Shown here: positions 288 to 55,423 of the stretch, in pieces
Layout: each line of letters begins with the position of its first letter
How positions within the stretch are numbered: the first letter of the stretch is position 1
Source: Sandaracinaceae bacterium
GTDB taxonomy: Bacteria > Myxococcota_A > Polyangia > Polyangiales > Sandaracinaceae
Direction of reading: 5' to 3'
Length of the DNA: 64,000 nucleotides
Assembly (NCBI GenBank): GCA_040218145.1
Contig: JAVJQK010000076.1
Coordinates: 62,001-126,000, forward strand
The notes under the pieces: model-generated
What the model saw: only the letters and a program-made list of their open reading frames with translations
Databases searched by the model: none
What the model was told of the DNA's origin: nothing
Made by a program: the position numbers and the translations under genes

Positions 288-430
288 CGCCCGATGGTAC
301 GCGAAGCCGGCGCTGGCGGTGGCTCCACGCCTCACAGAAGCACCTCGGACTGCTCGACGACGGACACCTACCGTTTCGCCGAGGAGCTTCGCGGGGCCGC
401 GACGCGGTACGCAGAGTAGCGCGCGCTTGG

Positions 431-589
431 CAGGCCGTTGAAGTACCGAGCCCGAAGGATCTCGGAGCGCGACGGCCTGGTTCTCGGTTCGGGGCGACGA
501 GGAAATGCTTCAGCATTTTCGAGGAGACACGGGCCGAGAGACGGCTCGTCCCGCCCGAGAGACGAGGAGCGAGGTTCTTCAACGGACTG
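431..589. repeat. 159-bp imperfect palindromic element in a gene-free gap
   Basis: The gap between 287 and 614 holds no convincing gene. Inside it the ends match as inverted repeats: CAG-N-CCGTTGAAG-N-ACC at 431-447 and its complement at 573-589. The exact centre carries a second inverted repeat, AAATGC at 503-508 and GCATTT at 513-518 with loop TTCA. The arms between also pair partly (for example TCTCGG blocks on both sides). The whole segment could fold as one long hairpin, like a MITE or a REP/BIME-type element. No transposase is nearby. The flanks 288-430 and 590-613 show nothing else. Confidence 0.6.
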
Positions 590-613
590 TTGGTCCCGGG
601 AGAGGATGCCGGG

Positions 614-1378
614 TCACGGGGCGGCGAGGGCCAGACCGGAGAGACAGGAGGCGCTGACGAGCGCCATGAGGACGAGCCACGGGGCGGCGCCCGCGAGCAG
701 GGCGCGGCCGCCGGAGAGGCCGTGCACGTGCTGGGCGACGATGAGCAGCTCGCCGAAGAGCCACAGCTCGGTGCAGAGGACGAGCACGGCCACGACGACC
801 CCGTTCGACGAGAGCGGCGCGAACACCGAGACGAACGCGTAGAAGAGCAGCGGCGCGTGGGCGTAGGCGCTGCCCCACACGCTGCGGAGCAGGCCGCGGC
901 CGCCGAGCACGTGGACGGCGGCGTGGAACACGAGGGTGCGGGTCAGGACGTGGGCGGCCTGCGCGACGAGGACGAACGCGAAGATCGGGAGCGCCGCAGG
1001 CAGCGCCACCAGGCCCACCCGCGACGAGAACGTCAGGACGTTCATCAGCGTCGCCACGAGCGCGACGGTGAGCATGACCGTGGCGAGGTATCCGAGCGCC
1101 CGGCCGGGCGAGCCTGGCGTGGCGGCCGAGAAGGTCGGGACCGACGCGAAGAGGACGCCGCGCGTGGTGCGCCACCAGCGGGACGCCCAGCCGCCGACGG
1201 CCTGTTCCCAGGCGATCCGGTCCAGGCCCAACCTCTCACGGCACGCTGCGCACACCCGCGTGTCGGCGTCGCCGGGGCCGAGGCAGGCCCCGCAGACGAG
1301 GTCACCACAGCGCGCGCAGATCGCGTCGGCCGCGGTGTCCGGGTGCGCGGCGCAGCGGGCTTCGGGCGCGATCTCCAT
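614..1378 (-). CDS. Zinc-ribbon/B-box-like plus Yip1-like membrane protein
   Basis: 254 residues from ATG 1378. The N-terminus (about residues 8-50) has a Cys/His cluster: RCAAHP, then two CxxC pairs in ICARCGD and VCGACLG, then VCAAC. It resembles the short B-box-like zinc finger that often precedes membrane domains in this phylum. After a linker there are about five hydrophobic segments (roughly 85-254) resembling Yip1/YIF1-type integral membrane domains. An upstream in-frame start at 1492 would add 38 residues rich in Cys and Arg; the start at 1378 puts the metal-binding motif directly at the N-terminus. Function unknown; a trafficking or membrane-stress role would be a guess. Confidence 0.7.
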   Translation of the reverse strand: MEIAPEARCAAHPDTAADAICARCGDLVCGACLGPGDADTRVCAACRERLGLDRIAWEQAVGGWASRWWRTTRGVLFASVPTFSAATPGSPGRALGYLATVMLTVALVATLMNVLTFSSRVGLVALPAALPIFAFVLVAQAAHVLTRTLVFHAAVHVLGGRGLLRSVWGSAYAHAPLLFYAFVSVFAPLSSNGVVVAVLVLCTELWLFGELLIVAQHVHGLSGGRALLAGAAPWLVLMALVSASCLSGLALAAP

Positions 1379-1525
1379 GCCACACGGAGAGTTGCAGCGA
1401 TGCGCGGCTGCGTCGAGCCGCTTCTGGACGCTGCACAGTGTGCACCTGACGACACGGGTGAGTGGGTCGGGGCAGGGAGAGACCGCGCCCACGTCGATGG
1501 CACATGACGTGCGCGGGGTCGGGGC

Positions 1526-54538: not shown

Positions 54539-55423
54539 GTGAAGCGGCCGCCCCCGTTCGATCCCAGGTCTCTTCCCCCCGGCACCACGCTGGGCGGGAA
54601 GTACGAGCTCGGCGCCCCGATCGGGTGGGGCGAGCACTCCGTGGTCTACGTCGCGACCCACCGGCTGCTCGAGCGGAAGGCCGCGGTGAAGATCCTCGCC
54701 AAGACCGACGACGCCACCGAGAAGCGCTTCGCGCGGGAGGCGCGACTGGCGGGCTCGCTGAGCGCCCCCAACATCGTCGAGGTCTACGAGATCGGGCGGC
54801 TCGACGACGGACGCGCGTTCATGGTGATGGAGTACCTCGAGGGCGAGACGCTCGAGGACCGGCTCCAGCGCAAGGGGCCGTTCTCGATCCACGAGGCGAT
54901 GAGCTACGGGCAGCAGCTCCTGCACGCGCTGGCCGTCGCCCACGAGGCGCAGATCGTGCACCGGGATCTCCGGCCGGAGAACATCTTCATGGCGCGGGTC
55001 CGCGGCGAGGAGGTCCTCAAGGTCGTCGACTTCGGTATCTCGCGGCGGTTCGGCAACGCGGGCGACTCGCACCTGACGAGGCCGGGTGAGCTGCTCGGCA
55101 GCGTGGGGTTCCTCGCGCCGGAGCAGCTCTACGAGGACGGCGTCATCGACCACCGCACCGACCTCTACGCGGTGGGGGTCCTGCTCTACCGGCTCCTGAC
55201 CGGGCGGCTTCCCTTCGAGGGCAAGGGCTCGATGTTGCTCATCCAGGTCGTGGAGAAGGAACCCGCTCCTCCGAGCGCGCACCGGAAGGAGCTGACCGCG
55301 GACGTCGACCGCGTCTTGCTCACGGCGCTGTCCAAGAAGAAAGAGGACCGCTTCTCCGACGCCGAGGGCATGGCCGAGGCCCTCCGACTCACCTCGCTGT
55401 TCGCGCAGTACGTCAGCGACTGA
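54539..55423 (+). CDS. Cytosolic Ser/Thr protein kinase, catalytic domain only
   Basis: 294 residues from GTG 54539. P-loop GWGEHS (29-34), Lys51 in AAVKIL, catalytic loop HRDLRPEN (141-148) with Arg in place of the usual Lys after the catalytic Asp, DFG at 164-166, and APE (193-195). A complete kinase domain with no membrane helix or sensor, short for the family. The Arg substitution at the phosphate-contact position could lower turnover, though the same change is tolerated in tyrosine-type kinases. The 3' end overlaps the convergent gene by 11 bp. Confidence 0.9.
   Translation: MKRPPPFDPRSLPPGTTLGGKYELGAPIGWGEHSVVYVATHRLLERKAAVKILAKTDDATEKRFAREARLAGSLSAPNIVEVYEIGRLDDGRAFMVMEYLEGETLEDRLQRKGPFSIHEAMSYGQQLLHALAVAHEAQIVHRDLRPENIFMARVRGEEVLKVVDFGISRRFGNAGDSHLTRPGELLGSVGFLAPEQLYEDGVIDHRTDLYAVGVLLYRLLTGRLPFEGKGSMLLIQVVEKEPAPPSAHRKELTADVDRVLLTALSKKKEDRFSDAEGMAEALRLTSLFAQYVSD

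Follow-up and report, generated by a model that had tools for sequence, protein, structure and literature searches.

A 159-bp MITE-like element of Polyangiales with an interior hairpin that appears to be kept on one strand and recurs in elements with different ends

The window analysed here, a 64,000-nucleotide stretch of the genome of a Sandaracinaceae bacterium (Polyangiales), a marine myxobacterium, contains a 159-bp, near-palindromic, non-coding MITE-like element at positions 431..589. The best overall explanation, which we consider probable, is that of a non-autonomous DNA transposon, mobilised in trans by a DDE transposase, whose interior is kept as a fold of one polarity. Direct support comes from the copies of the element, from their ends and target duplication, from covariation and strand asymmetry in the interior, and from the occurrence of the same fold with different ends.

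The preliminary description of this sequence had reported outer arms at 431-447 and 573-589 and inner arms at 503-508 and 513-518 with a shared midpoint. Both pairs of arms were found in the sequence as claimed, with computed midpoints of 510.0 and 510.5. An ungapped inverted repeat (431-465 with 555-589) is 71% complementary. The outer arms are the terminal inverted repeats, CAGGCCGTTGAAGTACC on the + strand at 431..447 and CAGTCCGTTGAAGAACC (as read on the - strand) at 573..589, defined by the sequence itself and by genome matches to the terminal pattern CAGNCCGTTGAAGNACC. When the region 425-595 (171 nt) was folded, the + strand reached -93.1 kcal/mol, compared to -66.6 +/- 4.3 kcal/mol for shuffled sequences (z -6.1, with 0 of 200 shuffles as good), and the - strand reached -74.6 kcal/mol (z -4.6). 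The element thus folds far better than shuffled sequence, and the + strand is the better-folding one. This strand preference, and the presence of the fold in elements with different ends, had been missed previously. No promoter-like site was found. The neighbouring gene (614..1492, - strand), an open reading frame with weak Yip1/B-box similarity below the Pfam cut-offs, has its 3' end toward the element.

The genome to which the window belongs (11.06 Mb in 148 contigs) was searched for further copies by BLAST. At least 40 matches were obtained, at identities of 93-99% when the window copy itself is excluded; the full copies match 431-589 and end exactly there, so that the boundaries first proposed are exact. 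Several copies lie at the very start or end of a contig, indicating that the repeat breaks the assembly. The terminal pattern CAGNCCGTTGAAGNACC gave 71 exact matches in this genome (0 for the reversed control) and 61 in a second genome of the same species, G182. The genomes compared are drafts, and the copy numbers are lower bounds. Most of the insertions examined occupy the same place in the two genomes. The G182 contig carrying the insertion sequence L172, described below, is identical over 2 kb when compared to the record of Sandaracinaceae bacterium MED-G138 (Polyangiales).

Copies are bounded by terminal inverted repeats CAGnCCGTTGAAGnACC with YTAR-type (CTAG) flanks, and in the window's own genome CTAG is favoured on both sides. 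A search for target-site duplications around the window copy found 4 bp, TTGG being present at both 427..430 and 590..593. Duplication of this length was also assayed on 22 copies with window-type ends, mostly from G002. The two flanking 4-mers were equal in 8 of the 22, compared to 2.85 in shuffles (p 0.0025), and were often non-palindromic (CTAA, TTAG, CTAC, CTGA); no duplication was detected at 3 or 5 bp in the same copies. The own-genome family showed no excess, with 7 equal 4-mers for the 5.6 predicted by the CTAG preference. At locus L062, where the empty site is nearly exact, the G182 allele without the element displays a single CTAA, versus CTAG on both sides when the site is filled, and one further base differs. 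The window's own site also lacks the element in G182; its junction is rearranged as well (GCTCGCGCCCCGGCGCGAGCGC) and is thus less informative. A TA duplication of the IS630-like type was considered and dropped, because TA is broken on either side in many copies and non-palindromic 4-mers are repeated. Insertion into pre-existing palindromes was likewise rejected, since left and right flanks pair no more than expected beyond the 4-mer.

Part of the interior, at 474..547 on the + strand, forms a conserved core that is common to elements with other ends. It was defined with a covariance model, R1, which was built on 10 sequences including the window copy and scores that copy at 86.5 bits on the + strand and 15.2 bits on the - strand. 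Among 183 genomes of the order, R1 detected the core in 10. The core-bearing elements are roughly 150-163 bp long and occur in several Polyangiales genera, and their terminal repeats are of nine or more kinds. The window-family type, CAGnCCGTTGAAG, is also present in G002, G041, G052, G063 and G068; AGCACATCTC was found in the own genome and G002, AGCGCC/AGCACC-GAYCGG in G002, G004 and G063, AGCGCTGACC in G002 and G052, ACCGCTCACGGCTTG in G052, GACTACTTGGTCACAT in the window's own species, GGGGTGTCCC in G015, GGGAGTGYCTTCA and ATGTCCTCGGCGG in G017, and TACCTCGCCACAGG in G042. The R1 E-values are rough owing to a shortened calibration, which affects the weaker matches in G068, G015, G017 and G042; several of these are complete hairpins with CTAG-like flanks. 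Elements with window-type ends and no core were found in G020, G032, G042, G066, G067 and G140. Thus, ends and core are separable.

R1 did not find the core in G001 and G006, two genomes of the same family assembled in one or two contigs, and an additional, weak match at window positions 54685-54763 (E 0.49), which does not fold like the core, was taken as chance. Rfam 15 gave no match to the window at gathering score, the best one being at chance level (E 9.6, at 380-640). No similar sequence was found in phage and plasmid records, viral contigs contained no exact match to the core, and there was no published description of the element in the openly accessible literature. A second family of the window's species, 157 bp long with ends GACTACTTGGTCACAT, carries the core (L080:1189-1323, L203:1503-1659 and L199:1416-1572); in L080 the copy directly adjoins a window-type copy, with CTAG common to both. 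The 5.2-Mb genome G020 contains a 141-bp family with window-type ends and an unrelated interior (L142, L137, L141 and L144), whose end pattern has 135 matches.

From its base to its tip, the core comprises a long stem, the facing motifs GACGA and GAGGA, and a tip stem of 8 bp. The tip (496..525, + strand) consists of GACGA, the 8-bp stem with its TTCA loop, and GAGGA; where the two pentamers face each other, a C-G pair separates two tandem G-A/A-G steps, and the tip stem covaries. In the ungapped core alignment, 88.6% of cells are paired and both sides have changed in 13 of the 22 pairs; three of the G/A oppositions are present in all 10 rows and the fourth in 9 of 10. None of 500 column shuffles reached this paired level, and structures slid by 1-3 columns along the alignment were only 35-48% paired. 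The arms of individual elements were also aligned with each other without an energy model. For 26 core elements, this gave 178 G-T, 30 A-C and 196 G-A/A-G oppositions, compared to 20, 19 and 16, respectively, for 7 elements with window-type ends and no core. G-T outnumbered A-C in each of the 26 core elements, which are related (some belong to one family) and do not represent independent trials. In the family of the window copy, 61 substitutions fell on paired sites and 45 of these left the pairing intact; per site, change was about 2.4 times as frequent where bases are unpaired. Shared ancestry inflates both figures. The covariation, the G/A oppositions, the G-T excess and the own-family substitutions thus indicate that one strand, in its folded form, matters. 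Judged from these alignments, the hairpin shape is maintained on one strand only, by compensatory changes.

Two kinds of insertion sequence, represented by L129 and L172, begin similarly to the element (CAGCCYGTTGA or CAGGCTGCTGA) and have CTAG flanks. L129 is 1.3 kb long, and its transposase matches the IS5-family model NF033581 above the cut-off. L172, from the window's own species, is 1.5 kb long with a 481-aa transposase, for which the IS1182 and IS5 models are the best but sub-threshold matches. At two contig ends, the window's own genome encodes the N-terminal 24 residues of the L172 transposase, accompanied by the L172 terminal repeat and by CTAG. The ends of the element and of the L172-type insertion sequence are alike at 13 of 17 and 15 of 17 positions, without being identical, a similarity that gives good support, short of proof, to an L172-type insertion sequence as the putative mobiliser. 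Distant relatives of the L172 transposase in Acidobacteriota lie in elements whose ends read YTAR followed by CAGCCYGTG, with unequal 4-mers in several cases. For L313-L320 (Acidobacteriota) and L172, the YTAR 4-mers are often unequal on the two sides, as they are in the MITEs; recombination between copies or imprecise duplication may be responsible.

Neither the L129-type nor the L172-type transposase was found in G002 or G052, though both genomes hold many elements. A search of G052 by terminal repeat retrieved only 15 short copies, and no insertion sequence with closely matching ends. The window had been said to hold no transposase, and tblastn with these two relevant transposases, a test of limited reach, found none in its 64,000 nt. 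The core was not present in the insertion sequences examined. An IS701 mobiliser, suggested by the 4-bp duplications, was rejected after a search for DDE_5 (PF13546) gave no match in the own genome, with control matches in two genomes. As far as can be judged from the sequences, a DDE transposase of an IS5/IS1182-like insertion sequence is the most likely agent moving the element in trans. In G123, a 521-bp element (L134:2508-3028) has CTAG flanks, CAG-type ends and an apparent remnant of an IS5-like transposase reading frame; it may stand midway between an insertion sequence and a MITE.

The position of copies relative to genes was analysed in two genomes. In the window's own genome, the CTAG-like flank forms a stop codon directly next to the element in about 11 of 38 copies. 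No excess of sense orientation to genes was observed for the copies of this genome; together with the lack of a promoter-like site, this gives no support for a cis role in mRNA. The 15 copies of G052 (L321-L335) are core-bearing, 157-158 bp long and have ends ACCGCTCACGRCTTG; 12 are identical, and no longer element with these ends was found in that genome. According to a simple gene caller, they lie mostly between convergent genes, and the flank provides a stop codon (TAG within CTAG) for 12 of the 15, compared to 12 of the 45 remaining CTAG sites in those stretches. We read this stop-codon placement as insertion or survival at gene ends. Placement at gene ends is consistent with tolerance or usefulness of the hairpin in the 3' ends of transcripts, a cis role being only a candidate.

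Pairing between the arms might also arise at the DNA level. Template switching in quasi-palindromes renders arms complementary without selection, and elements with the same ends and unrelated interiors do exist; the element could then be an ordinary MITE, its palindrome kept solely by this process and with no selected fold. However, template switching should erase the tandem G-A/A-G oppositions, yet these are kept in 9-10 of the 10 rows. Nor should it favour G-T over A-C, as is observed in core elements (178:30) and not in the same-ended controls (20:19). This explanation is unlikely and already disfavoured. The conserved letters are purine-rich motifs on one strand, and they could represent protein sites on double-stranded DNA, with an incidental palindrome. 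That is highly improbable, because pairing is kept through two-sided changes in the stems that separate and flank the motifs, and because G-T is favoured over A-C along the whole length, neither of which a duplex binding site would explain.

Movement as single-stranded DNA, in which an HUH/Y1 transposase (REP-associated or IS200/IS605-type) recognises the folded strand, would account for selection on one strand, and one strand is indeed favoured. Moreover, REP elements have TAG-type flanks next to a hairpin, and the flanks described here recall them. Against this stand the 4-bp duplications, which to our knowledge no known Y1 transposase produces, the match of the ends to DDE insertion sequences, and the absence of replication-strand bias among the 15 recent copies of G052 (8 of 15 and 9 of 15). 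We therefore consider single-stranded-DNA movement to be quite unlikely.

In the preferred reading, that of a DDE-mobilised transposon with a one-polarity interior fold, the transposase would recognise the terminal repeats and join the ~160-bp element to a YTAR site, generating the 4-bp duplication. The interior would not be filler. Rather, its long hairpin, in which the tandem G-A/A-G steps are fixed, would be maintained as a single strand that folds and has one polarity, most likely an RNA produced by read-through from neighbouring genes. This fold might help the element to spread or to be tolerated, for example if transcripts that enter an insertion at a gene end came to no harm. What we infer is the identity of the transposase, the benefit, and RNA rather than single-stranded DNA as the folded strand; the hairpin probably acts as folded RNA, which we hold to be likelier than single-stranded DNA. 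It is doubtful that the mobile unit is the hairpin itself, acting at the RNA level as a structured RNA that settled between different transposon ends. If true, this RNA would aid its own spread, for instance by recruiting a host or transposase factor or by passing through an RNA copy, and would be a bacterial counterpart of SINEs.

MITEs are usually viewed as passive passengers whose ends define them. In the present elements it is the interior fold, of one strand, that is kept across genera, while the ends vary with the family. This provides a testable case of selection on folded RNA (or a single strand) inside a mobile element. A covariance model is now available for finding more such elements, and the nearly identical copies of G052, located mostly at gene stop codons, constitute a natural experiment.

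The preliminary description had proposed either a MITE or a BIME-like element. The former stands, given the length of 159 bp, the terminal repeats, the dispersed near-identical matches (at least 40) and the 4-bp duplication; the latter is not supported, as a single 159-bp unit bears the terminal repeats and the 4-bp duplication, and no array of REP units is present. The two grounds for refutation named in that description, a lack of further copies and a folding energy no better than that of shuffles, were both contradicted by the data. Judged by its ends, target and copies, the element is a MITE of the IS5/IS1182 kind. Like other IS5/IS1182-type MITEs, it is short and non-coding, with CAG-starting terminal repeats, YTAR (CTAG) flanks, a 4-bp duplication and many near-identical dispersed copies. 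What sets it apart is the interior, a hairpin that is specific to one strand, conserves its tandem G-A/A-G steps and is found with at least nine kinds of ends. Like REP/BIME sequences, it is a dispersed hairpin that contains internal mismatches and has a TAG-type flank, but it is a single unit with a 4-bp duplication rather than an array. ERIC, NEMIS/Correia and similar repeats are imperfect palindromes of 100-160 bp located between genes and expected to fold in transcripts. The element resembles them as a long intergenic imperfect palindrome, and differs in lineage, ends and target sites. We know of no described case of a strand-specific core common to families with different ends. The mobility of the element is of a known kind; what is unusual is the persistence of a strand-specific hairpin between differing ends.
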